From: a virus
DNA length: 25,110 bases
Strand: one strand, 5' to 3'
Virus record (IMG/VR): IMGVR_UViG_3300026518_000056
Location: 1 to 25,110 of that record
In this document: positions 5,448-25,110 of the stretch, piece by piece
Position numbering within the stretch: the first letter of the stretch is position 1
Layout: every line of letters begins with the position of its first letter
The notes under the pieces: generated by a model
The model's database searches: none
What the model was told of the DNA's origin: nothing
The model's input: the letters and a program-made list of their open reading frames with translations, nothing else
Translations under genes and position numbers: made by a program

Positions 5448-5450
5448 TTT

Positions 5451-5459
5451 TGATATATT
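5451..5459 (+). promoter_or_regulatory. Weak candidate -10 element TGATATATT
   Basis: This is a one-base variant (TGATATATT instead of CGATATAtt) of the motif found before the genes at 7190, 8511, 14958 and 23670. It sits about 47 bases before the ATG at 5499, further than in the others, and directly before a stem-loop. If it is a promoter, transcription would begin inside the hairpin. It lacks the conserved CG. Confidence 0.35.
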
Positions 5460-5480
5460 TGGGGGTTAAAATCCCCAAAT
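5457..5480 (+). terminator. Stem-loop after the major capsid gene
   Basis: ATTTGGGG at 5457-5464 pairs perfectly with CCCCAAAT at 5473-5480 around an eight-base loop. The following bases are TTAATAT rather than a long T run, so this may be a partial terminator or an mRNA 3'-end stabiliser that leaves capsid mRNA more abundant than the downstream neck genes. Confidence 0.6.
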
Positions 5481-5498
5481 TTAATATAAAGGTTACTT

Positions 5499-5698: not shown

Positions 5699-6256
5699 AT
5701 GTGGGAATTGCTACTACCAGATGCTAAAAAGTTTTTAAATATTACAGACATAGAAGCAGATGGGTTAATAAAACTACTGTTACAGTATGTCGAAGATTAT
5801 ATATTTGCTTCTTTTGGAGTAGCAATAGAGCAACGCACAATTATTGAGTACCCAACATCTGATTTTGGGGTTAGTGTTATATACACAAATTCTGGTATTA
5901 TACAAAGTGTTATAGAGTTTTTAGTAGACAATGTTGATAATACTACAAACTTGACTACTTACTCATTCTTTAAAAATAATTCTATAAAACTAACTAAAAA
6001 CTCTCCAATTCTTTTATCTCCTGCCTCAGAGTATAAGCTTACTTATATAGTAGGGTACAATGACCCAGATAAAATACCAAGAGGCTTAAAAGGTGCTTTT
6101 TTTAATATTGTAAAAAAGATTTATATAGATGTTACAAAAAATACAGACTCTTATACTGCAATTAGTACGGGAGTAAAAGAGAGTGTAAAATTAATAGATA
6201 GTATTCCTTTAATAGCATTACAAACTTTACAAAGCTATAGAGTATATAAGTTATGA
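5699..6256 (+). CDS. Head-tail connector / DNA packaging adaptor (gp6-like)
   Basis: This is the likely adaptor ring that docks under the portal. The 185-residue protein starts with a helix-rich region (LLLPDAKKFLNITDIEADGL, then IKLLLQYVEDYIFASFG) typical of the HK97 gp6 family. A beta region follows, and then a long amphipathic helix (PRGLKGAFFNIVKKIYIDVT) and a second helical end. This helix, loop and helix layout, together with its place after the capsid gene, is the basis for the call; sequence identity to known adaptors is low by eye. The next gene starts inside its stop codon (ATGA at 6253-6256), so the two are translationally coupled. Confidence 0.75.
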   Translation: MWELLLPDAKKFLNITDIEADGLIKLLLQYVEDYIFASFGVAIEQRTIIEYPTSDFGVSVIYTNSGIIQSVIEFLVDNVDNTTNLTTYSFFKNNSIKLTKNSPILLSPASEYKLTYIVGYNDPDKIPRGLKGAFFNIVKKIYIDVTKNTDSYTAISTGVKESVKLIDSIPLIALQTLQSYRVYKL

Positions 6257-6726
6257 TTTCACAAGACTTTACTCAAAAGTCTTGGAAAAACTTTAGATTT
6301 TCTCTTGAAAAATATAGTGATGAGCTTATATCAGAGTATTTAAAATATGCTACAAAAGCTACAAATAAGTGGGAACAAAGCGTAAAACATGCTGTTGGCA
6401 AACAATTACCCAAACAATACTGGCACAGCAAAAGACCTAATAGTAGAAAACTATTTCCTTACAAAAATACAGGTAGCCAACAAGACTCTGTCTTAGCTGG
6501 TGTTACTAGGCGTGTTTCTGGGCAAGGTAATATCAATATCACAGCTTGGGGGCAGATTAAAGCTCCTTATGCCCACTATACAAATGAGGGCAAACCTGCA
6601 AGAGCAAAAGGCAATGGTGTTGCTTGGAAAGGTTGGGAAACAGATGTTTTTGAGGGTGGCAGAGGGAAACTAACAGGAATGTCCGATATATTTGATAAGA
6701 TAGCTGGAATGAGGAGTATTTTATGA
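6253..6726 (+). CDS. HK97 gp10-like neck / tail completion protein
   Basis: This 157-residue basic protein opens with a helical region (FRFSLEKYSDELISEYLKYA) and then has the recognisable ending of gp10-type proteins: IKAPYAHYTNEGKPARAKG (about residues 102-120), comparable to the YA-x-YvE-x-GT pattern in that family. Such proteins sit at the head-tail interface. It overlaps both neighbours by four bases (ATGA at each end). A CGATATATT element and an AGGAG site for the next gene are embedded near its 3' end. The function is inferred from this motif and from gene order. Confidence 0.65.
   Translation: MISQDFTQKSWKNFRFSLEKYSDELISEYLKYATKATNKWEQSVKHAVGKQLPKQYWHSKRPNSRKLFPYKNTGSQQDSVLAGVTRRVSGQGNINITAWGQIKAPYAHYTNEGKPARAKGNGVAWKGWETDVFEGGRGKLTGMSDIFDKIAGMRSIL
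6684..6692 (+). promoter_or_regulatory. Intragenic candidate promoter element CGATATATT
   Basis: This is a copy of the CGATATA motif inside the gp10-like gene, read there as Ser-Asp-Ile. It lies 39 bases before the ATG of the tail terminator gene (6723), close to the 33-36 base spacing of the four intergenic copies. TATATT at 6687-6692 would be the -10 box. An intragenic promoter is plausible but could be chance. Confidence 0.45.
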
Positions 6727-7133
6727 GAGTAAAACTAGTTGAGGCAATTTTATCCGATTTAAAAAAGTCAAAGAGGTATAAAAATTTATATAAAAATATA
6801 GTGCCTTTATGGACAGATATACCCAGATTTCCTGCTGTGTCTGTTCTATATGAAAGTGAACATAAAGATTTAAGTAGACTTTCTGGCAATAGATTTTATT
6901 ATGAGGGAATTATTTTAATATATCTTTTTAACAAACAAAAATCAGCAAACTCTTATGAAGATGTTTTGTCAGATTTTATTACAGAAATATATACATTGAT
7001 AAAAAATAATACATATTTAAGAAATAATACGATTGACTGTTCAGTGGCAGAGATGAAAAGAGAGGGTGGTATTGTACATCCATATGCAATAGCACAAATA
7101 AAAATAACTGTAAAGTACCAGCAAACTGTTTGA
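6723..7133 (+). CDS. Tail terminator-like protein
   Basis: This 136-residue protein is placed where siphophages encode the tail terminator, the hexamer that caps the finished tail tube and joins it to the head: just before the major tail protein. Visible features fit the small alpha/beta fold of that group: an N-terminal helix (VKLVEAILSDLKKSKRY), a central beta region with PAVSVLYESEHKDLSRLSG, a second helix (SYEDVLSDFITEIYTLIKN) and a final strand (AIAQIKITVKYQQ). It starts inside the previous gene with AGGAG just upstream. No catalytic motif is expected or seen. A structure prediction would settle whether it has the gpU/gp17-like fold. Confidence 0.65.
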   Translation: MRVKLVEAILSDLKKSKRYKNLYKNIVPLWTDIPRFPAVSVLYESEHKDLSRLSGNRFYYEGIILIYLFNKQKSANSYEDVLSDFITEIYTLIKNNTYLRNNTIDCSVAEMKREGGIVHPYAIAQIKITVKYQQTV

Positions 7134-7153
7134 GCAATTATAATACAGTTTGT

Positions 7154-7162
7154 CGATATAAT
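7154..7162 (+). promoter_or_regulatory. Candidate late promoter, CGATATAAT, before the major tail gene
   Basis: TATAAT at 7157-7162 is a perfect -10 box, preceded by the CGA shared with the other copies and by T-rich sequence. It is 36 bases before the ATG at 7190, leaving room for a start site about seven bases downstream and a short leader with AAGGA (7179-7183). No -35 box is evident at normal spacing. Confidence 0.7.
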
Positions 7163-7189
7163 TTATAGAAAACATATTAAGGATAAAAA

Positions 7190-8431
7190 ATGGGAATTTA
7201 TAGAACCACTGGGGCAGTGTATGCTGTCATAAAAGAAGCTAGTTTTAATGTTGGAGGCACTTTTACTGATAGTGATGTAGTTAGTGTTACTTCTGATACT
7301 TCATTAAAACCAGAAGTTGATTCTATTGAGAGAAAAGCTACAACAGCTTCTTTCATAGGTTTGCCAGCACTAGCTGGAAAAGAGCATGGCTCTGGTACTT
7401 TTGGGGTTGAACTAATCCCAGACTCTGCTGTAGCCCCCGCTAATGTAGTTGGCTCTACTATTTTAGAAGTAGCTCTTGGTATTAAATCAATTCCTGGGGC
7501 AGGGACAGGAGCAATAATCGGAAAAACTGTAACAGGAATAGATTTTACTTTTGCTGCTGCTGACAGTTCAGTTGCATGGACTTCTACAGATTTGTCATAT
7601 ATGATAACAGGGGATAAAGTTAATATATCTGGCTCTACCTCTAATGATGGTAATTATACTGTAGCTTCTGTAGATACTGCTAACTCAAAAATTATATTTA
7701 ATGAAACTGTGGTAGATGAAGCTTCTGGGGCAACAGTTACAATTATTGATAAATCTTATCCAATGATTGAGGATTGTACAAGAACAGGCTCTACTGGAGA
7801 TGCCTTTCTTTATAAGTTAAATAAAGCTTGTGGCTCACAAGATAGTCTAGCAATTAAAATGATTTTAGGCTGTACTGCTAGTGATAGTCAAAGCTTAATA
7901 TTTAAAGGCATTGTTCCAAACTCTAGTAAGTTCACTTTTCCTGTAGCTGATGTAGCAACTGTAACTTTTGATGTTGGTGCTTCTAGTTTTCAAACAAAAG
8001 CTGGGGAAGCTGTTTTAACAAGCACATCTCTTACTACCAACCCTTATGTTGGCAAGAATGCAGCATTTAAAGTGGATGGTGTTGTTTATGAAGCTAAGGA
8101 TGTTGAGTACACTATTACCAACACTGTTTCAGATAGAGAGTCTTTAACAGGTAGTGGGATAGATAGTAAAGCCGTCACTAAAAAAGAGATAAAAGGTACT
8201 TTATCAGTAACTTTTCAAAATTGGGATGAGCTTAATAAGTTTAAGGGTAATACAAATGCAAGTATTTACCTAGAAACTGATTCTGGTGATAGTCTTTTTG
8301 CAACATATTTACCTCTTGTTAGGTATTCTGCTGTTGATGTGGCAGATGATAGTGGTATTTTAATTAACAAAATTGAGTTTACAGCATATGAAGATGCTTA
8401 TGGTGAAGCTCTTTACATAGCTCACAAATAA
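7190..8431 (+). CDS. Major tail (tube) protein
   Basis: This is the repeating subunit of the tail tube. The 413-residue protein has the usual tube organisation: an N-terminal strand region (SLKPEVDSIERKATTASFIG), a central part (GSGTFGVELIPDSAV), and a C-terminal half with SLIFKGIVPNSSKFTFPVAD followed by strands. About residues 107-187 form a separate Thr/Ser-rich beta insert with GDKVNISGSTSNDGNYTVAS and EASGATVTI, a pattern I recall as a recurrent small domain in phage tail tube proteins. It has its own candidate promoter (7154) and is followed by a GC-rich stem-loop, consistent with high, separately tuned expression. It is larger than lambda-type tube proteins because of the insert. Confidence 0.85.
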   Translation: MGIYRTTGAVYAVIKEASFNVGGTFTDSDVVSVTSDTSLKPEVDSIERKATTASFIGLPALAGKEHGSGTFGVELIPDSAVAPANVVGSTILEVALGIKSIPGAGTGAIIGKTVTGIDFTFAAADSSVAWTSTDLSYMITGDKVNISGSTSNDGNYTVASVDTANSKIIFNETVVDEASGATVTIIDKSYPMIEDCTRTGSTGDAFLYKLNKACGSQDSLAIKMILGCTASDSQSLIFKGIVPNSSKFTFPVADVATVTFDVGASSFQTKAGEAVLTSTSLTTNPYVGKNAAFKVDGVVYEAKDVEYTITNTVSDRESLTGSGIDSKAVTKKEIKGTLSVTFQNWDELNKFKGNTNASIYLETDSGDSLFATYLPLVRYSAVDVADDSGILINKIEFTAYEDAYGEALYIAHK

Positions 8432-8436
8432 TGTTT

Positions 8437-8453
8437 GGGGGTTTTATGCCCCC
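8437..8453 (+). terminator. Terminator-like hairpin after the major tail gene
   Basis: GGGGG at 8437-8441 pairs with CCCCC at 8449-8453 around TTTTATG, followed by TTTCACTTCCTTTTAC. The T-rich but interrupted tail suggests a moderate terminator. A CGATATA promoter candidate restarts transcription 24 bases further on. Confidence 0.65.
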
Positions 8454-8476
8454 TTTCACTTCCTTTTACACTTTCA

Positions 8477-8485
8477 CGATATATC
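8477..8485 (+). promoter_or_regulatory. Candidate late promoter, CGATATATC, before the tail chaperone gene
   Basis: This copy of CGATATA is 34 bases before the ATG at 8511, preceded by TTTCA. A second AT-rich box (CTATAAAAT, 8488-8496) follows. The leader ends in AGGAG at 8500-8504. It lies just after the tail-protein hairpin, so the tape measure operon would have its own promoter. Confidence 0.65.
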
Positions 8486-8510
8486 TTCTATAAAATATTA
8501 GGAGATTACT

Positions 8511-8933
8511 ATGGCATTAAAACGCAAACTAGATATACCACTTACCTTTGAATATATTCCAAACTCTCAAAAAGGAGAGAAAGACCCGTTTACGGTTTCT
8601 TTAAAAAGACTATCACCAAAAGAGTATGCTCTTATTGAAGATAAATTAATACAATACCATCAAGATGAGGTTATGACCTTTTCAACTTCTATAACTAATT
8701 TTACAGCTGTGCAAAATAGCCTTATAAACTGGAAAAATATGCTTGGAGAAGATAATAAACCAATCTCTCCAAAATTTAATAATGGGCTTTTGGATGAAAA
8801 ATCTTTAGAGCTAATACCAATGCCTATGATAACAGAAATAGCAAATGTAGTTGTGGGCATTTCAAAAGACCCAGAAAATGCTGACCAGTATCTTGGGAAT
8901 ATAAAAGACCCAGCTCTTGCTACAAGTATGTAA
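8511..8933 (+). CDS. Tail assembly chaperone, first frame (gpG-like)
   Basis: This 140-residue protein sits between the tail tube and tape measure genes, where siphophages encode the chaperone that coats the tape measure protein. It begins with a short basic/beta segment (LKRKLDIPLTFEYIPNS) and has the pattern NWKNMLGEDNKPI (about residues 74-86) followed by a helix ending in ITEIANVVVGIS. I recall this as typical of this phage protein group. The start is well supported by AGGAG. The end overlaps the next frame: this frame stops at 8931-8933 while the next is open from 8905, an arrangement that recalls G/GT pairs, although here the second frame is +1 (or -2) relative to the first rather than -1. 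Confidence 0.7.
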   Translation: MALKRKLDIPLTFEYIPNSQKGEKDPFTVSLKRLSPKEYALIEDKLIQYHQDEVMTFSTSITNFTAVQNSLINWKNMLGEDNKPISPKFNNGLLDEKSLELIPMPMITEIANVVVGISKDPENADQYLGNIKDPALATSM

Positions 8934-9576
8934 AAACCATTTATATTTAAATATACATTCTGCTAAAAGTGGTCTGCCATATACTATTATATGCAGACCA
9001 CTTTCTTATAAAGAATTACAAACTTTAATAACTTTAACAGATACTAAAAACATAGAGCATGAAACAGTGTTGAGGGTTTGTCAGATGGCTATTATAAAAA
9101 TAGAATCTCCTTTTGGAGATACTTTACATTTGCATGAGTTGCCTTATAAAGACTTACCTATAATATCAAAATTTATCTTAAACAATTCTGCTGTAACCCC
9201 AAAAGACTCTGAAATTTTATACAATAGTGTTACAACTTATTTTTCTTATGAACTAAAATCTAAAACTTGGGATTGTGAGTTGTGCAAAAGCAAGAAATTA
9301 GATAGGCAGAGAAATTGTGGTTTTAGAAATGAGCAGCATAAAAGAGATGATTTTGCAATACAAATTGGGGAACATTTATATACCTCTTGTCCGATATACT
9401 ATGTAGATAAAAAAATTTTAAGCAAAGCTATAGAGTGCTTTAATGTATATGAATCTGGGTTCTTGCCTGATGCTGGTGGATTTTTTGACCAGACATCTTT
9501 TTTTGTGCAAGCCTCTCAATTAGTACAACGAGCAATTAGGGCTAAAGAAAAGAAAGAAATGGAGAACATTTCTTAA
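8917..9576 (+). CDS. Second tail-chaperone-region protein with four-cysteine motif
   Basis: This 219-residue product overlaps the previous gene and precedes the tape measure. The only plausible start is TTG at 8917; the frame is open back to 8905, after a TAA. There is only a weak AAAAGA upstream, so expression may depend on coupling to the upstream gene or on a +1/-2 frameshift. Cys120, Cys123, Cys134 and Cys158 (CELC, RNC, SCP) look like a zinc-binding knuckle. The C-terminus FLPDAGGFFDQTSFFVQASQ is a pattern I recall in proteins encoded just before phage tape measures. The N-terminal half (RPLSYKELQTLITLTDTK) is alpha/beta. Role inferred: tape measure chaperone partner. Confidence 0.65.
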   Translation: MLQVCKNHLYLNIHSAKSGLPYTIICRPLSYKELQTLITLTDTKNIEHETVLRVCQMAIIKIESPFGDTLHLHELPYKDLPIISKFILNNSAVTPKDSEILYNSVTTYFSYELKSKTWDCELCKSKKLDRQRNCGFRNEQHKRDDFAIQIGEHLYTSCPIYYVDKKILSKAIECFNVYESGFLPDAGGFFDQTSFFVQASQLVQRAIRAKEKKEMENIS

Positions 9577-9585
9577 AGGGGATTT

Positions 9586-12500
9586 ATGTCACAGCTATCC
9601 GATAAAACATACAAAGTTAATATAAATTTTAGACAAATAGGTTTAAATAAGTTAGATGGAGAGTTGGCAAAAATACAGACAGAACTCCCACATATTCAAA
9701 ATGCTTTAAAAAGTATAGGGGCAGATAATAGCTTAACTAGAACTTTTGAAAACTCTTTTGCACAATTAGAAGAGAATATTGCAGCTGTTGAAAGACTTAA
9801 AAAAGTTATTAATGCTTTAAGTTCTGATAATCCTAAAGCACAAGCTGGAGCTGCTTCTCAGTTCGGTATTACAGACCCTAACAACTCTGAAGCCATTTAT
9901 TTAGCATTAGCAGAAAAAATGGATGTAATAGCCAAAAAAGTATTACAAACTAAATCTAACTTTAAAGCTTTAGAGCAAGCTAGTTTAAACTATTTTAGTG
10001 CTTTAAAAACAAGTACAAAAGAGTATATATCAACTTTAAAAAAGCTTGGACTAGAGGAAAAAACAATTTCTAAGTTATCTTTAAAGCAAAAACAGCTCTT
10101 TGAAAGTGCTAAAAAGCTAGGTGATACTAAGTCTTTAAAAGCATACAACACTTCTTTAAAAACAAGAGTGTTGCTGTTAGGTAAATTACAACAAAAACAA
10201 CACTATTTAGGTAGCACCTCTTTGCCAAAAAGTATTTCTGGCACTATGACTAAACAAATAGAACAGCTTAAAAACAGCTTAAACAATTTATCCATACCTC
10301 TTGAAACAATACAAACTAAATTTGCAGGATTAATACCAGACTCTTATATTAAGAAAGCAGAAAAAACTAGAACTATAAATGCTGCTTTTATAAAGACTTT
10401 TAGAAAGCTAGGTATTGCTTCTACCGTTTTAGTAAAAATGCGTACAAATATGGATGCACTACTAAAAACATATATAAAAACAGGGAATGCTACACAGCTT
10501 GATGGATACATAAGTTCTTTAAAAATTAGAGAATCTATTTTAAGAGAAACAAAAGTTTTACAAGATAAAGTAAATGCCTCATTAGCCACAGAGCTGGAAA
10601 AAGAGCAAGCTTTAAAGAATATTAGGTCTGCCACAAGTGCTGCACAAAATGTAGGGGCTTCTAAACAAGATTTAGCAGACAAATATAATGCTGCTAAAGA
10701 TGCTGTCAATAACTTAGACCAGGCTTTAAGGCAGCAAGCCAAATTAGAGAAAGAATCTTTACAAACATTACAAAGATATGAGCAAGAGTTAGCAAGTTTA
10801 GAGAGACTTAAGCAAATTAAGTCTCTTTGGGCAACCCCAAGAAGTAAAAAAGAGGCTGCAGAAGCTATAAAAGATATAAAGATTATGATAGCAAAAGTAC
10901 AAGAGTATCGTAAAACTCTGAACTCTGCTTCTGGGCAAGCTTCTGTAGCAACCCCAAAAGGATTTAAAGAGTCTGAGGCTTCGTTATCTAAACTTAAAGG
11001 CTCTTTAACAGGAATTGTGGAAAAAGCTAGAGAAGCAAAAGCCTCTTTATCTAATATGGGCTTAGTACAAGTTGCTAAAAGAACTGCCGCTTATGCTAGT
11101 GCTTATGCAGGATTTTACCAAGTTATACAAGCTTTTAGAAATGGTATAGGGTTTGTAGTAGAGTTTGATAAAAATGTACATGTAATGGCTGCTGTTTTTG
11201 ATGTTGCTATCACAAAAGCAAGGCAGCTACAAAAAGGTTTAGTAGATTTAGGTAGAACTTATGGTGGAGATATAAAAAATATTAATGAGGCTGCTTTAGC
11301 ACTAGGTAGAGCCGGTCTGGCTGCAAGTGATGTAGTTAAGGCTACAGAAATAGTTATTAAGATGGCAAAACTCACTGGGGATACTATTGGAGTTTCTTCA
11401 AATGCTTTAATCACTTATAAACAAGATTTTGAAGATGCTGCTCATCCTATAAGTGTTTTAGGAGACCAATTAGCATATGTTGCAAACCAATCTAGGTTAA
11501 GCACACAAGATATAGGAACTTTTTCAAACTATGCCCTTGCTAGTGCAAAAGCTGCAGGACTATCTGTAGAAGCTATAAATGCTATGGCAATCTCATTATC
11601 TAACGCTGGTGTTAATGCCTCAACTATTGGTACAGAAATTAGAAGGTTTAGCTTCTTACTTAGAGATAGTTCAAGCTCTGTTCAAAAGTTTTTTACCTCT
11701 TTAGGTACATCACAACAAACACTAGCTGCTAGAATTAGATATAGTACAGATAGTGCTAATAAAGCTCTTTTAGAATTAATTACAAAAAGTGCTGCTATGA
11801 GTGATGCAGCTTTTGCTAAATCTCTACAAGGTATGGATATTAGAGCAGCAGAAATTTTAACACTACTTAGAAACAATAGTGAGTCTTTTAAAGCACATTT
11901 CAAAGATTTGTTAGATGGGGTTAATGGAGAGTTAGATAAATCAAACTATATTGCAGACTCTTATGCCTCTACTTGGGAAAGGGTTAAAAACTCTTTAGGC
12001 TCTGTTTTTGAGGCTTTGTCTAGGTCTGGTTTTCAGACAGTAAATGGGCAATTACAAACTTTTAATGATATGCTTATAAAAATTAGCAACAATTCTGATA
12101 AATTTATGCAAAACATATTACACTATTTTAAAATGATTGGGTATGCCTTGTCTGGTCTTTTTGCTTTTAAAGGCATAGTCTCTTTGTGGGAAGCTGCAGC
12201 AGTGCCTCTAAAAAATATAAAAACCTCTTTAATAATTGTAGAGGGTGCTATGGCAAGAAGTAAAACTATAATGTCAGGTCTTTTTTCAATAATTAAAAAG
12301 ATAGCTATAGTTGTGGCATCATTTTTTATAGACAATCCTATAGTCCTAGCAATAGCAGCTATAGGAGCGGCAACATATTTTGCTTACACCAGTTTGAATA
12401 AAACAGATAAAGTTATGGCTCATCTCACACAGACACAAAAAACTTTGAATACACAAATTAGATTAGGTAGTGATTTACACAAAGAAAAACTATATAAAGC

Positions 12501-14916: not shown

Positions 14917-14924
14917 TATTTTTA

Positions 14925-14933
14925 CGATATACT
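14925..14933 (+). promoter_or_regulatory. Candidate late promoter, CGATATACT, after the tape measure gene
   Basis: TATACT at 14928-14933 is a good -10 box preceded by a T run and CGA; it is 33 bases before the ATG at 14958. AAAAAGG (14945-14951) is the ribosome binding site. This would drive the whole tail-tip operon. Confidence 0.68.
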
Positions 14934-14957
14934 TAGTAACAATGAAAAAGGCTTTAT

Positions 14958-16883
14958 ATGGCATATAGAATAGAAAGTAATAAAACCCCAAAAGAGATGA
15001 TGGAGAACCTGTATGATTTTTTAACAACTACTATTTCAATAGATGACCCTGATTATAGTTCTGCTGCTGGAAATGGTTCTTTCACTAATTTACACTTTGA
15101 TAGAACAACAGCAAAAAGCGAGACTTGGACTTTACAATGTACTGATGAAAGTGCTGGTACATTCTCTGTGCAAGGCTCTATAAGTGGTGTAAAAGCAGAT
15201 GTAACTGTTGGAACTGCTTATGATAATGGCATAATGTCTTTTACTTTAACAGCTGGCACACAAGCTTTCCTATTAAATGATATTATTAATATTACTATGT
15301 ACACTAATTTAACAACCCCTTTCAAACCTTTAGAATACTTTAAAGGTAGTGAATATAATTATTATAAATATGGTACAGATATTAGCATTTCTGGTACAAA
15401 TGGTAGAAGAATGTTGCCAGCTCCTGATGGAACAAATTCAGCAATTTCAGAAGCTGGACAATGTGTACAAGCAAACTTCATCACAGCTGACTATAATGTC
15501 GGAGACTCTTATACATACCTTACTAACATAGGCTCTCAAAATATTTTAACAACCACTGATTTTACTGTCAATTTTTGGGTCAAGAACTTAACAAGTGGTG
15601 TTTGTTTTACACAACCTAATGGGTATAATGATGGTAATGCAACAGGGCAGTATAATAAAATTGGGTTTTCTATCACAGCGGATGATATTAGGCTGACAAG
15701 AGGCACAAATAATAATGTGTATGACTATACCACCTTTTTAACAAGTCTTAGAGGTAGGTTACTAATTGAGGGCATTAATGTTGCAGATTGGATGTCTTTT
15801 ACTTTTGTAGTAAATAGAACAACCTCTACATGTAAAGTGTTTGTAAATGATGTTTTATTAGAAACAATAGTGAATGATTACTTTGCCATTAACCATGATT
15901 TCTTTATGACAGTATTGATAAGTAGAAATAGGGCTAATGATGGAGACCAGTACTGGGGTGGGACAGTTTGGAAGAGACAGCTGTCAGATATAGAAGCGAA
16001 ACAAATATATACTGACAAAGGTGTTGAACAACTTAATGATTATAGCCAAACAATGATGTTTCAAGGTATGAAAACACCCCCAACATTTCTTTTAAAGTAT
16101 AAAAGTGGTTATTTAAAGATGGCTATACAACAAAACAAATGCTTATATGGGCAATACTTACAAAACCTAACTTTAAATTATGCCCCAAGTATTTTAGGTT
16201 TAGATGAAGTAGCACTATCACACGGTACACAATCGGCAAATTACTACCACAATAGTCCTACAAATTTTTATGGGCTTATGCCAGATTTTGAAGCAAATAT
16301 TGAAAAATATTGGTTTATTACTGATGGAGAGACTATTATAATTAGTTGGAAAATATTTGACCCATCTACTTCACAACCTAACCCAGTGTATCAAACATAT
16401 TATGTAGGAATTACAGAGGGGATTGATTATCAAAAAATAGCTCCTGATTTTTATGGAACAAGAGATGGTGTAGATGTCTGGACAACAACCTCAACCTCTT
16501 TCAGATTTGGGGCATTGTTTACACAAAACTATGTAAGATGGAATAATGCTATATCTTCTTGGGTTAGAAGTAGAACAAACACAGGAAGTACAACTTACCC
16601 AACAAACTTTGATAAAATAAATTTAAGTGAAAATTCAATACCTTTATCAAGGCTTTGTGCAAGAGGGGAATATTATGCTGGTCAATATTATGCAAATGGC
16701 ACATCTTATAGTACTTATGGCACACAACCTTATGAAACAGTGCTAAAACATATCTATCAAGCTCCTAAGGCATCTTTTGTTCCAGAAGATTATCTTTTAA
16801 TAGATGGTATTAAGTATGTAATATTACAAGATTGTAACAGAGCTGACTCAACATCTATGTTTGCTTTAAAATTATTTAATTAG
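14958..16883 (+). CDS. LamG-domain virion/tail-tip protein
   Basis: This 641-residue protein appears to have three parts. Residues 1-30 (MAYRIESNKTPKEMMENLYD) begin with a short helical lead. About 56-112 form a beta domain (TWTLQCTDESAGTFSVQGS; SFTLTAGTQAFLLNDIINI) of a kind I recall in phage tail proteins. About 192-352 look like a concanavalin/LamG sandwich: FTVNFWVKN, WMSFTFVVNRTTSTCKVFVN, then WGGTVWKRQLSDIEAKQIY, the usual closing pattern. The C-terminal half (WFITDGETIIISWKI; PEDYLLIDGIKYVIL; SMFALKLF) resembles another virion-protein domain seen in tail-tip operons. A role in surface or sugar contact is inferred from the LamG fold. It is the first gene after the tape measure and has its own candidate promoter. 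Confidence 0.75.
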   Translation: MAYRIESNKTPKEMMENLYDFLTTTISIDDPDYSSAAGNGSFTNLHFDRTTAKSETWTLQCTDESAGTFSVQGSISGVKADVTVGTAYDNGIMSFTLTAGTQAFLLNDIINITMYTNLTTPFKPLEYFKGSEYNYYKYGTDISISGTNGRRMLPAPDGTNSAISEAGQCVQANFITADYNVGDSYTYLTNIGSQNILTTTDFTVNFWVKNLTSGVCFTQPNGYNDGNATGQYNKIGFSITADDIRLTRGTNNNVYDYTTFLTSLRGRLLIEGINVADWMSFTFVVNRTTSTCKVFVNDVLLETIVNDYFAINHDFFMTVLISRNRANDGDQYWGGTVWKRQLSDIEAKQIYTDKGVEQLNDYSQTMMFQGMKTPPTFLLKYKSGYLKMAIQQNKCLYGQYLQNLTLNYAPSILGLDEVALSHGTQSANYYHNSPTNFYGLMPDFEANIEKYWFITDGETIIISWKIFDPSTSQPNPVYQTYYVGITEGIDYQKIAPDFYGTRDGVDVWTTTSTSFRFGALFTQNYVRWNNAISSWVRSRTNTGSTTYPTNFDKINLSENSIPLSRLCARGEYYAGQYYANGTSYSTYGTQPYETVLKHIYQAPKASFVPEDYLLIDGIKYVILQDCNRADSTSMFALKLFN

Positions 16884-16892
16884 GAGTGTAAA

Positions 16893-17804
16893 ATGAACCA
16901 AATATTTTATGAAAAATACACAGCAGTACAAGCTAGTCCTCTAAATTTACTCTCTTTGGTGTGTGACCAGCACCCTGTCTGGCAAGTAGACAAGACAGTT
17001 TGTAATAATGAAGGCAATGTGGTAGAGTTGTATTTACACTTGGCACACCCTGTAACAGGGAGATTATCTTATTTTTCTTTTGAATGGATAAATAAAGCAA
17101 CCTTAAATTGGTATATGAACACAGGTTTTGATAGTAATTTGACAGCCTCTACACAGCCTGGAACTCTTCCTTATAATGGAAGTAGTACGGCTGCTATAAA
17201 TATAGGCTTTACAAATACATCATTACAACTAAGAGAAATTTATATAACAATAACAGACACTATGATATGGTTTACTATAAAAAGATATGATAATGTTGAT
17301 GATGTTGCTTTATATTTTGGAGCATATCATAACACAACCTCAATAGGCACTAACGACTCCTTTATGTGTTCTAATAAAAATAACTGGTTTCAGTTTAATT
17401 ATAATGGTACAATATATGTAGACAGCACACAACATAATGATACCTCTTTTTTACAAGGCACTTTCAATTTAGATAGAAATTCACAATTCTTTTATTTGCC
17501 AGCTTTAGTTGATGGTTCTAAACAAGTAACTACAAACACTTTGTGGGTAAACAATGATAATAGTGTAGACAATGTATCTTTCAACTATGTTGGATATTTT
17601 GATGACCAAGTTGCTTATGTTGATAGCACCTTAATAACACAAACTAAAACAGGGAATACAGAGTTTTTAGTCATACCTTTAAACCAAACTATATTTCCAA
17701 AAACAGGTATTTATATTGATTTAGCAACTTTAGACCAGCCTACTTATATATTTTCAAATTTTGTGCACAACCCTAATGTAATATCCAACACAGATTGGAT
17801 ATAA
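16893..17804 (+). CDS. Virion protein, possible partner of the upstream LamG protein
   Basis: This 303-residue product is not assigned to a named family. It starts nine bases after the preceding stop with AGGAG upstream. The sequence is beta-rich, with many Asn, Thr and aromatic residues and no signal peptide or membrane segment, as expected for a virion surface protein. The stretch REIYITITDTMIWFTIKRYD followed by ALYFGAYHN (about residues 112-146) resembles in layout EKYWFITDGETIIISWKIF followed by YYVGI in the preceding protein, so the two may share a domain. The next ATG follows its stop directly (TAAATG at 17802-17807), so it is coupled to the repeat protein downstream. Confidence 0.6.
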   Translation: MNQIFYEKYTAVQASPLNLLSLVCDQHPVWQVDKTVCNNEGNVVELYLHLAHPVTGRLSYFSFEWINKATLNWYMNTGFDSNLTASTQPGTLPYNGSSTAAINIGFTNTSLQLREIYITITDTMIWFTIKRYDNVDDVALYFGAYHNTTSIGTNDSFMCSNKNNWFQFNYNGTIYVDSTQHNDTSFLQGTFNLDRNSQFFYLPALVDGSKQVTTNTLWVNNDNSVDNVSFNYVGYFDDQVAYVDSTLITQTKTGNTEFLVIPLNQTIFPKTGIYIDLATLDQPTYIFSNFVHNPNVISNTDWI

Positions 17805-19583
17805 ATGTCTGATATAGTTAAACTAGCTCCTTTAGAAACTATCAACAATAGTGAGCTAGTAGATTATACTATACCTAACACTAGTATTACAAAGCCTGTG
17901 TTAGAAATTTTAAACACCACAGAAAACAATATTTATGTATATGCCTGGCAGTTTGATACAGTTAAAACAATAGATATAATTGAGCAAATTTATAAACATC
18001 TGGGTATAAACAAAACAAAAACAAATGTAGAAGCAATCACAGAGTATGTTGCATACTTAAAACAACAGCATATACCTATAATAGAAAGTATACAAAATAC
18101 AGAGGCAGTTGCTTATGTAGTTACCACTGGTGTACCAAAATCTATTTTAGAGAATATCTCAGCCACTGAAACAGTTATAAAAAGTTTAATTAGCACTAAA
18201 CAAAGTATAGAAACAACAAATTTAACAGAAACTGTAGACTACTTTGTAAACACTTCGCCAGTATCTAAAAACCCTTTAACAGAAGTCACATCTTTAGCAG
18301 AGCTTCCTGTCAAAGTTTTACAACATAAATTTAAAAGCTTACAAGAACAAGAGAGTTTATTAGAAATAGTAGAAACAACTATTAACCACTTTCCTAATAT
18401 AAATGAAGCAATAAATTTATCAGAGCTAGTAGACTATTTTATAAATAGTTCTGTATTTGTTCAGCACAGTCAAAGAATATCAAGAATACGAGAAGCTGTA
18501 AATAAAACAATTGTAAGTTATATCAAAGCTAGGATTGAATACTTTGGTATAATAGATACGGGAATGCCAAAACCCCAAACTTTAATAGCTATGCCAACAG
18601 CATCTACTCATGCATATACTCTTACCAAATATCAGAAAGAGTTTTTAACACATACCTATACAACAGCTGTAAGTAATGAAACATTAAACACAATACAGGT
18701 AGCACTAAGTAGTAGCAACCCTACAATCTCCATACTATACACACACAACCAGTTAAGGCTATATCCTGGGAATATATACTGCTCTTTTGGGTTAATTGCA
18801 AAAGACATAGCACAAGACTTTATAATAAAATCTGGATACTTGCAAGATTTAATAGTAACTGCTATAAACATCCCAAACTATTTAGGGGGAAGTATAACCT
18901 TAAATGTTGGGGATATAATCCCTGCTTTATCTGATGTAACTTTTGTATTAACATTATTTTTAGATAAAGGAGCTGTTGTTTTAGATAATGCCAATTTCTC
19001 TATTGAGTTGAATAGCTCTATTATAATTCCTATATATGTGTCTGCCACAAGACAAACGGGGATTGTTAATTCTTTTGACCCAGATTACAAGACTTATAAA
19101 TCTACTTTACAGTATTCTACTAAAACTTTTAGAACAATGGTTGGGGTTGAAAAAAGAAGAGCTTTACTTATGACTCCAAAAAAAGGGGTAGAATACACTA
19201 GAACTTTTCATACATCTGCTGCCTATGAACAAGCTAAAAGCTCCTTAGAACAGAATTTATATAAGCTGAATTATCAACCTTTGTGGGGTTCTGCAGTCCA
19301 TCCTACAACTACTGATGTAGGTAAAGGAATACCTTATATAAATAACAAATATGCTTTTAAGATAGGGGATTATTTGTGTGTATGGACATCTCATTTAGAT
19401 TATAAAGTTGTTAAAATCACTAATATTACAGATGTTACAATACTTGTAAACATTACTGTATCATGGACAACAGATGATTTTATCATTCCATTAATAAAGG
19501 TTATGGCTGAGACAAGCACTTCTGCTACATATACACATAATTTAGACCAAACTATAAAATATAAGTTTAGGACTTTGACATGA
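17805..19583 (+). CDS. Virion protein with tandem 21-residue repeats
   Basis: This 592-residue protein has two halves. Residues about 9-240 are built from roughly eleven degenerate repeats of 18-24 residues with the pattern hhE-x-h-x-x-T/S-E-h-V-x-Y-h-h. Clear units start near 9, 31, 91, 113, 134, 157, 178 and 198 (for example PIIESIQNTEAVAYVV and NINEAINLSELVDYFI). The second half is beta-rich and ends with KRRALLMTPKKGVEYTRTFH and LNYQPLWGSAVHPTTT followed by FKIGDYLCVWTS. I recall this layout from structural proteins upstream of DUF2163 hubs in siphophages. It starts immediately at the previous stop and its own stop overlaps the next ATG (ATGA at 19580-19583). It probably forms an elongated part of the tail tip. 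Confidence 0.65.
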   Translation: MSDIVKLAPLETINNSELVDYTIPNTSITKPVLEILNTTENNIYVYAWQFDTVKTIDIIEQIYKHLGINKTKTNVEAITEYVAYLKQQHIPIIESIQNTEAVAYVVTTGVPKSILENISATETVIKSLISTKQSIETTNLTETVDYFVNTSPVSKNPLTEVTSLAELPVKVLQHKFKSLQEQESLLEIVETTINHFPNINEAINLSELVDYFINSSVFVQHSQRISRIREAVNKTIVSYIKARIEYFGIIDTGMPKPQTLIAMPTASTHAYTLTKYQKEFLTHTYTTAVSNETLNTIQVALSSSNPTISILYTHNQLRLYPGNIYCSFGLIAKDIAQDFIIKSGYLQDLIVTAINIPNYLGGSITLNVGDIIPALSDVTFVLTLFLDKGAVVLDNANFSIELNSSIIIPIYVSATRQTGIVNSFDPDYKTYKSTLQYSTKTFRTMVGVEKRRALLMTPKKGVEYTRTFHTSAAYEQAKSSLEQNLYKLNYQPLWGSAVHPTTTDVGKGIPYINNKYAFKIGDYLCVWTSHLDYKVVKITNITDVTILVNITVSWTTDDFIIPLIKVMAETSTSATYTHNLDQTIKYKFRTLT

Positions 19584-20200
19584 TTTTTTATAAAAAATAT
19601 CCTATGCTACCAAAAGAAATTATAAATATAGGGAAAATTGATACAAGTATAAAACACAAACACCTCACTGTTGGAAAAAGCTATACCAAAGAAGATTACT
19701 ACTATACAGAAGAGGTATACTCTTCCTTTTCTTATAATTTCTCTTTTACTAATAGAACAGAATATGTAGTTATAGAAGATTTTTTTAATCTTCAACTGGG
19801 GAAACTAAACAACTTTTGGGGAAGAACTTTTAAAAACACTTTTGAAATGTATAATCTTTTGGGTTTAGGGAGTAAAATAAATGTTAAATATAGTGAACAG
19901 CATAAATTACTGGATTATGGATATATATTTATATATCTACCTGATTATGACTTTGCTACAAGAGTGCTAGCAGCAGAAAGAAAGACAGATTTAAATGGTA
20001 TAGATATTTATACAGAGTTTACTTTAGAGAATATACCACCAGCTGTTACAATGGATTTAAAAATAGAGCCAATTCTTTATGGACACTTTAACACAGACAC
20101 TTTAACTGTACAATATGACGATATAAATATTGGAATGGTGACACTTCCTTTTGTAGAAAATGTGCCTACTCAATATAAGATAGATTTGGAGCTTGCTTAA
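19580..20200 (+). CDS. Distal-tail-like protein (candidate Dit equivalent)
   Basis: This 206-residue protein lies directly before the tail hub, the position taken by distal tail proteins in gene transfer agents and related siphophages. The segment EDFFNLQLGKLNNFWGRTFK (about residues 68-87) resembles the F...G....FW.P pattern I recall from proteins at this locus. The rest is beta-rich and aromatic. It overlaps the genes on both sides (ATGA at its start, TAATG at its end). No other motif identifies it, so the call is positional. An alternative is a non-Dit structural protein of the Mu-like siphophage tip. Confidence 0.55.
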   Translation: MIFYKKYPMLPKEIINIGKIDTSIKHKHLTVGKSYTKEDYYYTEEVYSSFSYNFSFTNRTEYVVIEDFFNLQLGKLNNFWGRTFKNTFEMYNLLGLGSKINVKYSEQHKLLDYGYIFIYLPDYDFATRVLAAERKTDLNGIDIYTEFTLENIPPAVTMDLKIEPILYGHFNTDTLTVQYDDINIGMVTLPFVENVPTQYKIDLELA

Positions 20201-20946
20201 TGGAATTATTTGATATTACTTTTAATAATTATACATATAGATATAATAATTCTACCGAGTCTGTAACAGATTCTGGTGGGTATGTCTATGCTCCTTCTTC
20301 TATTATTAGAAAAGACTTAGTTACTGATATTGAAAAAGCAGCCTGCAATATGGTAGCTAGTATGGAAACTAAGCCCTTTAATACAATGCTATATCAAACT
20401 TCTATAGTGCCTGTTCCAATAACTATAAAAATATATCCAGAAGAGACAGTTCTTTTTGAAGGTGTTGTTGCAGGGCTGAAATATGATATTGAAAAAGGTT
20501 CTGTAGCTATATCTGTAACTTCTAAAATTTCTTTAGATGAGATAACATTACCTAAAGTAACTTATAGTGAATACTGCTCATGGGAGTTATTTTCCACAGA
20601 GTGTACCAAAAATAAACTAAACTATCAACTCCTCCTTAATACATCAGATAGTACTTATGACAATATAGTTATCACTAATGCAGCTTTTGCTTCATATGTA
20701 ACAGGATATTTTACTAATGGGTATATAAAAATGGATAATGGAGAAGCTATGCTTATTACAGCTAGCTCTTCAAATACAATAACACTTTTAACTTCTATAA
20801 ATACTTTTAATACTGCAAACAGTTTTAAAGTATACCCTGGATGTGATAAAACAATAAACACTTGTATTAACAAATACGATAACTTAATAAATTTTAGTGG
20901 GTTTCCTTATATCCCAGACAATAACCCAGTAACACAGGAGTATTAA
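20200..20946 (+). CDS. Tail hub, BR0599/DUF2163 family
   Basis: This 248-residue protein has the family's closing signature GCDKTINTCINKYDNLINFS followed by GFPYIPDNNP (about residues 214-243). Four cysteines, Cys126 and Cys135 (YCSWELFSTEC) and Cys215 and Cys222, are in the places where the family keeps conserved cysteines. In the gene-transfer-agent hub I recall these bind an iron-sulfur cluster; that it does so here is inference. The N-terminal half is a beta domain (FEGVVAGLKYDIEKGSVAIS) as expected of a hub ring at the tube tip. The length is close to the usual size for a hub lacking extra domains. No NlpC/P60 peptidase gene follows, unlike in many relatives. Confidence 0.85.
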   Translation: MELFDITFNNYTYRYNNSTESVTDSGGYVYAPSSIIRKDLVTDIEKAACNMVASMETKPFNTMLYQTSIVPVPITIKIYPEETVLFEGVVAGLKYDIEKGSVAISVTSKISLDEITLPKVTYSEYCSWELFSTECTKNKLNYQLLLNTSDSTYDNIVITNAAFASYVTGYFTNGYIKMDNGEAMLITASSSNTITLLTSINTFNTANSFKVYPGCDKTINTCINKYDNLINFSGFPYIPDNNPVTQEY

Positions 20947-20947
20947 T

Positions 20948-21175
20948 ATGCCATTATGGGGAATATTTTTATTAGTTACAGCCGCTATGGTTATGGTCTT
21001 ACTTATAGCTATGCCACAAATGACTGGAAATGAAAACACACAATTAAATGATATAAACTTTCCAGATAATAGTAATAGTAAAGCTGTTCCAATAGCTTTC
21101 GGTACTGTATGGATGTATGGCAATATATTATTTTATACAAACCCTAAGCATAGGGGTATACAAGCATGTCAATAG
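20948..21175 (+). CDS. N-terminal piece of a split J-like tail tip protein
   Basis: This 75-residue frame starts one base after the hub stop. Residues 4-24 are hydrophobic (WGIFLLVTAAMVMVLLIAMP), followed by NDINFPDNSNSKAVPIAFGT and VWMYGNILFYTNPK. In related phages I recall this as the amino-terminal part of one continuous tail tip protein (DFxFPTxxEGxPIPVxFGT, then a GGKGGG linker). Here it ends with TAG TGA in tandem at 21173-21178, and the remaining two frames are closed by TAA at 21180 and 21184. The second half begins as a separate frame at 21189. I infer that the two products are made separately and assemble together, or that this is a relic of a disrupted gene. Confidence 0.6.
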   Translation: MPLWGIFLLVTAAMVMVLLIAMPQMTGNENTQLNDINFPDNSNSKAVPIAFGTVWMYGNILFYTNPKHRGIQACQ

Positions 21176-21188
21176 TGAGTAACTAAAT

Positions 21189-23261
21189 ATGGGTGGTGGT
21201 AAAGGTGGTGGAAGTTGTTCTAATGTTGGTTTTGGATATAGTCTAACTTTTGGATATGCTTTTTGTGATAAACTAGATGAGCTTTTATCATTTAATATGA
21301 ATGGCAAAAATAGGTGGACAGGAAGTATTATAAACACAGGTAGCTTTACTGCATGGACAGGAAATTTAGGCACAACTTATTCATCAAATTATGGGCAAAC
21401 CTCTGTAATTGCTTCTTTAGGCACACAAACTGATGCACCAGCAAATGTTGCAGGACTCTTTCCACATGATTTAAGTTATAAAAACTTATGTTGGTTATTT
21501 TTTGATAATGCTTTTATAGGTGATAATGTTATGTCTGTTCCAAAATACAGAATAAAAGGTAGACGCACAGATATATATAACATTACTACATACTCTAACA
21601 TAGATGGAACAGCAAACCCCGCCTATGTTATTTACTATATTTTAAACAAATTATTAAACATCAATGATACACATATAGACATACATTCTATAGATTATGC
21701 AGCACAGTTACTATACACAGAAGGCTTAGGGATTTCATTTCTTTTATCTAGGAGTCATAAAGTAACTAAATGGATTAAAGAAATATTAAGACATATTGAT
21801 GGTATTTTATACTTTGATATATTTAATGGTAAATATGTTTTAAAATTATTAAGAGCTGATTATGATACAAATAATGTAATAACTCTAACAGAAGCTGATG
21901 TGGCACGAGTATTAATAACAAGAGGCACATGGAAAGATATAATCACTACTTTTATTTTTACATATACAAACACAGATTCTGGAAAGCCAGCCTCCATCAC
22001 AATCAGCAACACTGCTGCAAGAGAGGTTTTAGGGTATGATAGACCTAAAAAATACTCTTTTCCTATGATTTCTACTAATACAGCATTAGATAAAATAATT
22101 AGTAGCACGGTCAAGAAAGAGGGCTTTCCAAAATCTAGTGTAAAACTTAGAGTATCTTTAATGGATTTTCCAAATATATATCCTGGGGATGTCTTTAGCT
22201 TTGAATATGTATCTAAAGGAATACCAAAAACTGTTTATCGTGTTGTAAAACTTGCTGGTGATAGCTCAGACACTTCATACTTAGAGATAGAAGCTATAGA
22301 AGATATTTTTGCCAACTCTTTAGGTTTAAACACAACTATTACACCACCAGTAAGCAACACTGTAAATTATGCTATAACAAGCATTCCAAATACTTATGTA
22401 CTACATGAGCTAGATAATGAATTTACTACAATAGAGGTTTTAATATCTATTGTAGGAAAACCAAGCACTACAGAAATAATTACACAAGTGGTTATGACAA
22501 ATACTGTAAATGGTGTACAAACAAATACACCTGTTGTTAGTGCTTTTTTATTAAATACAGATATACCACAAAACTATAGCTATGAGGCAGATGCTATTTT
22601 TAATATAACAGATAATAGTAATAATATATATGATAAGACTTACACAGATGAGGAATTTCAAAGACATCAAGGGCTATTATTTATAAACCACAAAGTGTTT
22701 ACATATAAGAGTATAAGTAAGCAGCCAAATGGCTCTTTTAACATCACAGGGCTTATGGCATTATCAAAAGATATACCATTACTACCTCAAGCTACTACAA
22801 CAGGCTTTATAACAACACAAAATATTATATCTAATAGTTATTTAGCTTTGTTTAACACAAGTATATATAACTACTCATTAGCTTTTAAAAACCTTTTCAC
22901 CAAAGGTAATTCTATAACTAATACAAAAAACAGAACTAACTATGCACAATACCCTTTACCTTGTTCTAATTTAAAATACTATGACAGTGGTACTTCTAAT
23001 ATATTGGTCTTTTCACCAAGTGTAAGAACTAAAGGGGCTTCTTATATTAGTTGTGATAATATAATAGCAGGGAATGATGAAAATACTTATGAAGGCACTT
23101 TCATAATAAAGTATAATGGTTCTAAAGTTTATGAAATAACTTCTCCCACTTTTGTAAATGGGTATATAGAGTATGATACAACCAATTATAATACAGGCAC
23201 TTGGGAAGTTGTTCCTAAATTAAACAGCTTTCAAACAGCATCCTCAACAATAACTATTTAA
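21189..23261 (+). CDS. J-like tail tip / host-specificity protein
   Basis: This 690-residue protein forms the distal tip and probably contacts the host. It begins with MGGGKGGGSCSNVGFGYSLT then FGYAFCDKLDELLSF, matching the internal segment of continuous homologues. Residues about 230-375 carry the baseplate-hub-like region of the Phage-tail_3 type: TFIFTYTNTDSGKPA, YSFPMISTNTALDKI, FPNIYPGDVFSFEY, YRVVKLAGDSSDTSYLEIEA then IEDIF. The C-terminal 300 residues are Asn/Thr-rich beta sequence and probably the variable receptor-contacting part. Only a weak GTGAG precedes the ATG, and the frame opens just after a TAA at 21180. It is much shorter than lambda J and lacks obvious fibronectin repeats. 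Confidence 0.8.
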   Translation: MGGGKGGGSCSNVGFGYSLTFGYAFCDKLDELLSFNMNGKNRWTGSIINTGSFTAWTGNLGTTYSSNYGQTSVIASLGTQTDAPANVAGLFPHDLSYKNLCWLFFDNAFIGDNVMSVPKYRIKGRRTDIYNITTYSNIDGTANPAYVIYYILNKLLNINDTHIDIHSIDYAAQLLYTEGLGISFLLSRSHKVTKWIKEILRHIDGILYFDIFNGKYVLKLLRADYDTNNVITLTEADVARVLITRGTWKDIITTFIFTYTNTDSGKPASITISNTAAREVLGYDRPKKYSFPMISTNTALDKIISSTVKKEGFPKSSVKLRVSLMDFPNIYPGDVFSFEYVSKGIPKTVYRVVKLAGDSSDTSYLEIEAIEDIFANSLGLNTTITPPVSNTVNYAITSIPNTYVLHELDNEFTTIEVLISIVGKPSTTEIITQVVMTNTVNGVQTNTPVVSAFLLNTDIPQNYSYEADAIFNITDNSNNIYDKTYTDEEFQRHQGLLFINHKVFTYKSISKQPNGSFNITGLMALSKDIPLLPQATTTGFITTQNIISNSYLALFNTSIYNYSLAFKNLFTKGNSITNTKNRTNYAQYPLPCSNLKYYDSGTSNILVFSPSVRTKGASYISCDNIIAGNDENTYEGTFIIKYNGSKVYEITSPTFVNGYIEYDTTNYNTGTWEVVPKLNSFQTASSTITI

Positions 23262-23270
23262 AGGATTTTT

Positions 23271-23633
23271 ATGGCAATTTTAACAAATGGAATAGAAACT
23301 ATTGAAGTTGGCTCTACTACATGGAGAGTGATATTTAACAGTAATTTCTCTAAAATATATACTAAAACAGAAATAGACACAGCATTGTCAAATAAAGCAG
23401 CTGTAGCCACAACAATAGCTGGATATAATATTTTAGATGCTTATACAAAAACTGAGAATGATACCAATTTAAGTAATCACAATACTTCAGCTACTTCTCA
23501 CAACTTAAATAGCAGGACAAGAGATATATCTTTTACAGACAACACTAAAGGAGTTGTACTAGCAGATAGAACCAATGGAAACAATTATAGAATATATTCA
23601 GATAGTGGTGTTTTAAAAATAGAGCAGGTTTAA
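23271..23633 (+). CDS. Small tail fibre-type protein with YTKTE repeats
   Basis: This 120-residue protein has AAAGGA before its ATG. The N-terminus (STTWRVIFNSNFSKIYTKTE) matches the pattern of phage fibre proteins that begin with a W..I.N.NF.KI anchor. Two copies of a fibre repeat follow: IYTKTEIDTALSNK at about 29-42 and AYTKTENDTNLSNH at 57-70. The C-terminus KGVVLADRTNGNNYRIYSDS then GVLKIE is a common fibre ending (GVVLxDxxxGxxYRL). It is probably a trimeric short fibre or tip plug. It ends the large tail-tip operon that begins at 14958; a promoter candidate lies directly after its stop. Confidence 0.7.
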   Translation: MAILTNGIETIEVGSTTWRVIFNSNFSKIYTKTEIDTALSNKAAVATTIAGYNILDAYTKTENDTNLSNHNTSATSHNLNSRTRDISFTDNTKGVVLADRTNGNNYRIYSDSGVLKIEQV

Positions 23634-23634
23634 A

Positions 23635-23643
23635 CGATATATA
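23635..23643 (+). promoter_or_regulatory. Candidate late promoter, CGATATATA
   Basis: This copy of CGATATA begins two bases after the stop of the fibre gene and is 35 bases before the ATG at 23670, with AAAAAGG at 23657-23663 as ribosome binding site. TATATA/TATAAA would be the -10 box. Confidence 0.65.
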
Positions 23644-23669
23644 AATAAGACAAATAAAAAGGTTAAAAA

Positions 23670-24209: not shown

Positions 24210-24668
24210 TTATAATAATGTAGCTATTGCATAAGCATCTATCAAATCATCTATCTTCTTATACTTACTCTCAAAGTATTTAATAACCTCTTTATCAGTT
24301 GCTTCAAGCATATCTTCTTTTTTTGCATTCCCTTTTCCACTATATAACTTTTTTATGTGAGAAGGTGTAAAAAGTTGAGTATCATACCCAATCTCTTTTA
24401 AAGAGAAGTAAATATACCCTAACAACATTGAAAGCTGTGCAACCCTACCTTTACTACCAAATGAAATACTTTCCATACCTATCTTAAGCTCTGTTTGATG
24501 ATAGTGTGTAATGAATTTTAATAGCTGTAATTTAGTATATAAAATTCTATCTTCTATTTGCATCTTTTTTGGTGGAGTTATTAAAGAGAATGTTTCAATT
24601 TTTTTATCATCTGTAAGCACAACTACTCCAGTATTAGTTGTGCTTTGGTCAATGCCTATGTAAGTCAA
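24210..24668 (-). CDS. RuvC-like Holliday junction resolvase (phage type)
   Basis: This 152-residue nuclease resolves branched DNA, probably before packaging. The RNase H-like active site is visible: Asp7 (IGIDQSTTNTG), Glu66 (IGMESIS) and Asp141/Asp144 (KKIDDLIDAYAIA). The length is close to bacterial RuvC and phage versions. Other family-like parts are GRVAQLSMLLGYIYFSL and FTPSHIKKLYSGKGNAKKED. The start is TTG at 24668, overlapping the stop of the upstream LamG gene as TTGA, so it is translated by coupling. It lies on the strand opposite to the virion genes, convergent on the terminator at 24168. Confidence 0.88.
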   Translation of the reverse strand: MTYIGIDQSTTNTGVVVLTDDKKIETFSLITPPKKMQIEDRILYTKLQLLKFITHYHQTELKIGMESISFGSKGRVAQLSMLLGYIYFSLKEIGYDTQLFTPSHIKKLYSGKGNAKKEDMLEATDKEVIKYFESKYKKIDDLIDAYAIATLL

Positions 24669-25110
24669 TTTGTTGTCTTTGTAACAATACTTGCAAAAGC
24701 TGTACCTGCTGTGTTTCCTACTACTTTATTTATTAGCAACTTACCTTTTTTAGTATTTGTATTACTTGTGTAAGTTTTTTTATAATTTCCTGTAACATAA
24801 TCTATAGTCTCAGTATCTAAAGTATTAGGGGCATAATTTTTAGTATCTGCTCTTTCCTCCACTATAGCTGTTTCTAAAGTGATGTCTGGTTTTACCATAA
24901 TATTTGTTGGGGGAGCTGAAAGGTTGTTTGAAGAAATATCTATTTTATTAGTTTGTTCATTATATAAGAAATCTACTTCCTCTGCTGTTAAAGCCTTGTT
25001 AAAAACACGAACTTGGTCATATATATCTCCACTTGTTACATTTGTGTATGGGGCACACCCTATACCTACAACATTTCCCGAATTGCTTGTGCCTGTTACA
25101 GTAAAAGCAG
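24665..25110 (-). CDS. LamG-domain protein (C-terminal part, runs off the window)
   Basis: The minus-strand frame ending in TGA at 24665-24667 is open without a stop to the right edge, so the ATG at 24898 is internal and the gene starts beyond the window. The first visible residues, SGDIYDQVRVFNKALTAEEV followed by DFLYNEQ (encoded at about 24950-25030), are the characteristic closing segment of a LamG/concanavalin A-like sandwich (G.iDevriynraLsaeEv..ly). After it comes an Asn/Thr-rich tail of about 95 residues. It is probably a virion surface or fibre protein that binds host carbohydrate. It overlaps the RuvC-like gene by four bases. Confidence 0.75.
   Translation of the reverse strand, partial: AFTVTGTSNSGNVVGIGCAPYTNVTSGDIYDQVRVFNKALTAEEVDFLYNEQTNKIDISSNNLSAPPTNIMVKPDITLETAIVEERADTKNYAPNTLDTETIDYVTGNYKKTYTSNTNTKKGKLLINKVVGNTAGTAFASIVTKTTN

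Follow-up and report, generated by a model that had tools for sequence, protein, structure and literature searches.

The 25,110-bp fragment IMGVR_UViG_3300026518_000056 from IMG/VR, referred to here as the window (the whole stretch of DNA that was analyzed), carries siphophage head and tail genes: terminase, portal, protease, capsid, adaptor, tail terminator, tail tube, tape measure and tip proteins. Its terminase and capsid distantly match those of T5-like phages (approximately 23-25% identity). A seven-letter word, CGATATA, recurs at short distances before these genes, and an earlier inspection of the window alone (the original prediction) had proposed that it is the phage late promoter. Here we examine this word in the window, in six related contigs that share it (g1 to g6), and in three longer genomes of a sister clade (g15, g16 and g18). 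Genes were called simply, as the longest frames passing a ribosome-binding-site filter, so some of the start distances are approximate.

CGATATA occurs eight times in the window, always on the plus strand and never on the minus strand. A re-scan confirmed all eight positions given by the original prediction, along with the distances of 36, 34, 33, 35 and 39 nucleotides reported between five copies and the following starts. The copies are as follows:

1647-1653, plus strand: CGATATA inside the end of terL, 67 nucleotides before the portal gene (TTG start at 1714); portal-upstream copies are also found in g1 (7021) and g6 (13077).
6684-6690, plus strand: CGATATA within the gene at 6253-6726, 39 nucleotides before the tail-terminator gene at 6723 (phrog_3907); the g1 counterpart lies at 12296.
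7154-7160, plus strand: CGATATA, putative promoter, 36 nucleotides before the tail-tube gene; predicted transcription start near 7167.
8477-8483, plus strand: CGATATA, putative promoter, 34 nucleotides before the tail-chaperone-like gene at 8511; predicted start near 8490; same site in g1, g2, g5 and g6.
9392-9398, plus strand: CGATATA within the gene at 8917-9576, 194 nucleotides before the tape-measure gene; predicted start near 9405; kept in g1, g2, g4 and g6.
14925-14931, plus strand: CGATATA, putative promoter, 33 nucleotides before the gene at 14958, 3' of the tape-measure gene; predicted start near 14938; equivalent to 12778 in g2.
20119-20125, plus strand: CGATATA within the gene at 19580-20200, 81 nucleotides before the tail-assembly gene at 20200; g1 also has CGATATA here, and g15, g16 and g18 have ACGATWAT.
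23635-23641, plus strand: CGATATA, putative promoter by position and spacing, 35 nucleotides before the gene at 23670; predicted start near 23648.

The abundance of the word is well above chance, as had been claimed: 8 of the 76 CpGs in the window lie within it, and dinucleotide-preserving shuffles yielded a mean of 0.49 copies and at most 4. Under an order-2 Markov model, CGATATA is the most over-represented 7-mer of the window (8 observed, 0.61 expected). Its placement is equally uneven, with five of the eight copies falling in the zone 30-41 nucleotides before starts, which makes up 1% of the window (binomial P of about 6e-9), and with four of the five intergenic gaps longer than 25 bp containing a copy, as originally reported. 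The remaining copies at 1647, 9392 and 20119 do lie at other distances from starts, as noted earlier; nevertheless, they are not noise, given that they precede the portal, tape-measure and tail-assembly genes and that relatives carry the motif before the same genes.

The search of relatives extends this pattern. Contigs g1 to g6 were obtained through a capsid search, which provided four viral contigs, and through later scans, which added one contig from a metagenome-assembled genome (MAG) and one more viral contig; all six contain CGATATA. Across five contigs (the window, g1, g2, g4 and g6), it is the most over-represented 7-mer on the strand read, with 43 copies against 5.06 expected. Restricting the count to the zone 28-45 nucleotides ahead of ribosome-binding-site starts, both strands included, gives 21 copies against 0.53 expected, and none of the 21 one-mismatch variants of the word is enriched there. 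Positions are also shared: the word stands about 35 nucleotides before starts of orthologous genes, precedes the tail-tube gene in every clade contig that contains this gene (the window and g1 to g6), lies ahead of the first post-capsid gene in g1 to g6, the window being the exception, and is found before the tail-chaperone, portal and further genes. In g6, a minus-strand copy (6349) lies ahead of a holin/lysozyme cassette.

The copy before the tape-measure gene deserves attention because it is embedded in coding sequence. It reads CCG ATA TAY in the window, g2, g4 and g6, whereas in g1 it lies within CCT ATT TTC GAT ATA, displaced by 6 nucleotides and read in another codon phase. Moreover, CCG is rare among the proline codons of the window (4 of 233). 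That the word is kept despite the displacement, the change of codon phase and the use of a rare codon suggests that selection acts on the word in the DNA, not on the encoded protein.

Two distant relatives with approximately 30% capsid identity (L014 and L015) have no CGATATA, and L056, with 30% terminase identity, has six copies in 67.6 kb without strand bias. Scans with MazG-like, RuvC and terminase queries provided no more complete CGATATA genome, and the capsid scan of genomes matched one 6-kb contig from a Desulfobacterales MAG, possibly misbinned.

Three further features lie in the region of the capsid and tail-tube genes:

4242-5447, plus strand: major capsid protein gene (PHROGs major head protein), 46-67% identical to its relatives and used as the query for finding them.
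5451-5479, plus strand: TGATATA and a terminator-like hairpin (5458-5479) in the gap at 5448-5498 after the capsid gene, where g1 to g6 have CGATATA.
8436-8456, plus strand: terminator-like hairpin GGGGG-TTTTATG-CCCCC, by sequence and fold, between the tail-tube gene and the putative promoter at 8477.

The gap at 5448-5498 is the fifth of the larger gaps, and the TGATATA within it is possibly a lost promoter. Strong hairpins are located just upstream of many sites, notably after the capsid and tail-tube genes. Together with the lysis cassette on the opposite strand, they fit a promoter at which separate late units are transcribed anew.

A second line of evidence comes from the sister clade, in which g15 (89.7 kb) and g16 (83.4 kb) were found by a portal scan and g18 (82.1 kb) by a sigma scan. 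Both g15 and g18 look complete because of their terminal repeats, near-exact over 3,047 bp in g15 and exact over 116 bp in g18. The head-tail genes of all three are fully syntenic with the window, with identities of 57-59% for the capsid, 53-55% for the portal and 43-44% for the terminase. Unsupervised word discovery in g15 and g16 returned ACGATTAT, which inspection of upstream regions extended to ACGAT(A/T)AT, or ACGATWAT, with g18 serving as an independent check; the tail-tube genes of the three genomes are all preceded by ACGATAATA. The pattern is reversed between the two clades: the start zone of the sister clade has 22 copies of ACGATWAT (1.09 expected) and no CGATATA, which is at background in these genomes, whereas that of the window clade has 22 copies of CGATATA (0.97 expected) and no CGATWATA. 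ACGATWAT precedes the portal, protease, tape-measure and tail genes and also a few replication genes. With the element before replication genes, this clade may use it in the middle phase in addition to the late one, so the earlier label of a late promoter may be too narrow. The phage late-promoter reading itself is strongly supported by conservation at orthologous positions, rigid spacing, orientation, upstream terminator-like hairpins and the opposite-strand lysis cassette.

Two side observations concern these genomes. A hairpin-like sequence, CCGAG...TGAGTTAAGA, is conserved upstream of the first post-capsid gene in g15 (before 21884), g16r (before 19402) and g18r (before 18504), replacing the promoter word. 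In g15 (G015, L078-L082), the 3,047-bp terminal repeat has internal repeats, and this genome also encodes ribonucleotide reductase, Thy1, PhoH, DNA polymerase A and a Clp protease.

The genomes g15, g16 and g18 each encode a sigma factor of 187-190 amino acids, located after an SbcC-like gene. Pfam Sigma70_r2 matches it with E-values of 2.5e-13 and 3.4e-12, and Sigma70_r4 with 4e-8 in g16 and weakly in g15, while region 3 has no Pfam match. FliA models are among the best specific-family matches (E of about 1e-12), and FliA is its best PDB relative (E = 3e-8 over region 2). The predicted structure consists of two helical domains with a low-confidence linker between them, and its best Foldseek matches are sigma factors within RNA polymerase holoenzymes, together with related models. 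No relative of this sigma factor was found in the INPHARED phage set, and a sigma search of the Desulfobacterales MAG returned weak matches in frames of 329 and 650 amino acids alone and no phage sigma. Our literature search found nothing on phage FliA-type sigma factors.

The anatomy of the sites is consistent with a promoter of the phage-sigma type: like such promoters, CGATATA is one conserved element that keeps a fixed, short spacing to late genes and has no -35 box. All seven letters are fixed, and the strongest downstream signal outside the word is at position +13 counted from its C, which is A in 24 of the 29 start-linked sites and a purine in 23 of 26 sites of the sister clade. Judged by this peak, the C would lie near -13 and the start would follow the word by 6-7 nucleotides, which suggests that transcription begins at the purine about 13 nucleotides from the C. 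Upstream, searches for TAAA, TTTAAG and gapped words in general found no clear -35 element, in agreement with the earlier observation that none is visible; a single weak signal resembling TTACAA or GTTTAA lies near -22 to -27.

On this comparative evidence, we consider it quite probable that CGATATA is a -35-less promoter for the host RNA polymerase, read with a phage-encoded FliA-like sigma factor. The original prediction had left the choice between a host sigma-70 variant and a phage factor; the latter is favored because a FliA-like sigma is encoded in the complete relatives, whose motif is a variant specific to their clade. For the window clade, the sigma factor is a prediction, since no CGATATA contig includes the replication region. 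In the proposed mechanism, CGATATA would be the whole core of a phage-specific promoter and act as its -10 element, the C lying at about -13. A FliA-like sigma produced earlier in infection would join the host core RNA polymerase and read the word, thereby driving chiefly the head, tail and lysis genes and restarting transcription past the terminators behind the capsid and tail-tube genes.

Some observations weigh against this explanation. None of the CGATATA contigs, which are fragments without the replication region, contains a sigma gene; the model of the phage sigma has middling confidence (predicted local distance difference test score, pLDDT, of 66); and although the protein carries a region-4-like domain (weak in g15), the promoters revealed no -35 box.

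Among the alternatives, the one that survives best is that the flagellar σ28 (FliA) of the host reads the word, the phage having adopted a host motility promoter for its late genes. The -10 element of Campylobacter jejuni σ28, CGATwt, located 6-8 nucleotides before the start (PMC3847290), agrees with both the motif and the predicted start, and it is also the reason why a FliA-type sigma fits the CGAT core. The outer-membrane gene of g1 described below, epsilonproteobacterial-looking to us but without a supporting database match, would also speak for this reading. However, the start zone, where CGATATA alone is enriched, contains no CGATTTA, CGATAAA or other FliA-like variants, and the TAAA expected about 17 nucleotides upstream of CGAT, at -21, appears in only 1 of 26 sites. 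Furthermore, the sister clade uses a changed word at these promoters, and all three long relatives encode a sigma of their own, all of which makes a host σ28 improbable.

More doubtful still is a host σ70 promoter, with TATAnT as the -10 box and either a phage activator or a conserved CGA extension, as in T5. The motif does contain TATA, the terminase and capsid are related to those of T5-like phages, and T5 uses host σ70 throughout (PMC7472727). The TATAnT reading, put forward by the original prediction, is not supported by the details of the sites: its final T is present in just 13 of the 29 start-linked sites, which makes a σ70 box unlikely, the C and G of the word are irreplaceable, and there is no -35. 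A role other than promotion, as an RNA processing site, a repressor site or a recombination boundary sequence, would account for a short, rigid, asymmetric word at gene borders, but we regard it as very improbable given the hairpins immediately upstream, which require transcription to restart, the coding copy before the tape measure, the purine peak at +13 and the correlation with the sigma gene in the sister clade. We give almost no credence to a phage single-subunit RNA polymerase of T7 or N4 type, despite the rigid consensus without a -35 box, since the motif is short, an alternative sigma is present, and no T7-type (RNA_pol family) match was found in the three long sister-clade genomes (G015, G016 and G018; T7 positive control at 1e-109), N4-type and multisubunit polymerases not having been searched separately.

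Regarding the evolution of a phage-encoded sigma with its own promoter word, we lean towards a history in which uncultured siphophages related to T5 took up a FliA-type sigma as a late-gene switch, after which the two clades changed the promoter word jointly at orthologous sites (CGATATA versus ACGATWAT). If true, the two clades would offer a natural comparison of how the specificity of a sigma changes together with that of all its promoters, in this case a shift of FliA-like -10 specificity alongside every orthologous promoter. Phage sigmas are usually too diverged for promoter prediction; here, sequence alone allows the factor to be matched to its word in one clade and the match to be predicted in the other. 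This explanation would also add a phage sigma to the T5-related group, whereas T5 itself depends on host σ70. In addition, CGATATA offers a seven-letter tag for recognizing metagenome fragments of this phage group.

Other genes of the window and its relatives offer further observations. Between the tail-tube and tape-measure genes, the overlapping frames 8511-8933 and 8917-9576 are offset by +1, as they are in g1, and likely represent a tail-assembly chaperone pair linked through a +1 or -2 frameshift, an unusual direction. The minus strand at 24210-25108 encodes a RuvC-like resolvase and contains a truncated reading frame, both oriented against the late genes; a terminator-like hairpin near 24170 separates the two directions. 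In g1, a gene for an OmpA-like outer-membrane beta-barrel (L009:5142-5714) lies between the gene for the small terminase-like protein and that for the large terminase, behind its own CGATATA. This gene has no relative among phage or plasmid records; we take it to be epsilonproteobacterial-looking, a label that no database match supports.

Comparison with known systems places this element among several precedents. T4 late promoters consist of TATAAATA, lack a -35 box and are read by the sigma factor gp55, whose gene lies near 46/47. The likeness resides in a rigid -35-less element before late genes and in the sister-clade sigma gene following a gp46/SbcC-like gene; the differences are the word itself, CGATATA rather than TATAAATA, the region-4-like domain of the sister-clade sigma and the lack of any known clamp dependence. 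T5-like phages share a related terminase and capsid; the difference is that T5 relies on host σ70 for all gene classes (PMC7472727). Flagellar σ28/FliA promoters resemble the element in the CGAT core and in the spacing to the start, which is predicted here, and FliA is closest to region 2 of the phage sigma; they differ in that the FliA -35 is missing, the word is fixed as CGATATA or ACGATWAT, and the factor is encoded by phage relatives without a recognizable region 3. The sister-clade sigma has no significant BLASTP match to gp36 of phiEco32, and it differs from that system in its word, its FliA-like character and its region-4-like domain. In phiEco32, the middle and late promoters, tAATGTAtA, are read by the phage sigma phi32_gp36 with starts 6-8 bp downstream (PMC8948821, PMC4331800), and in its relative 7-11 another word occupies similar places in the genome (PMC8948821). 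With one highly conserved -10-like element, no -35 box and a location before structural genes, phiEco32 represents the closest working parallel to the CGATATA promoters proposed here.

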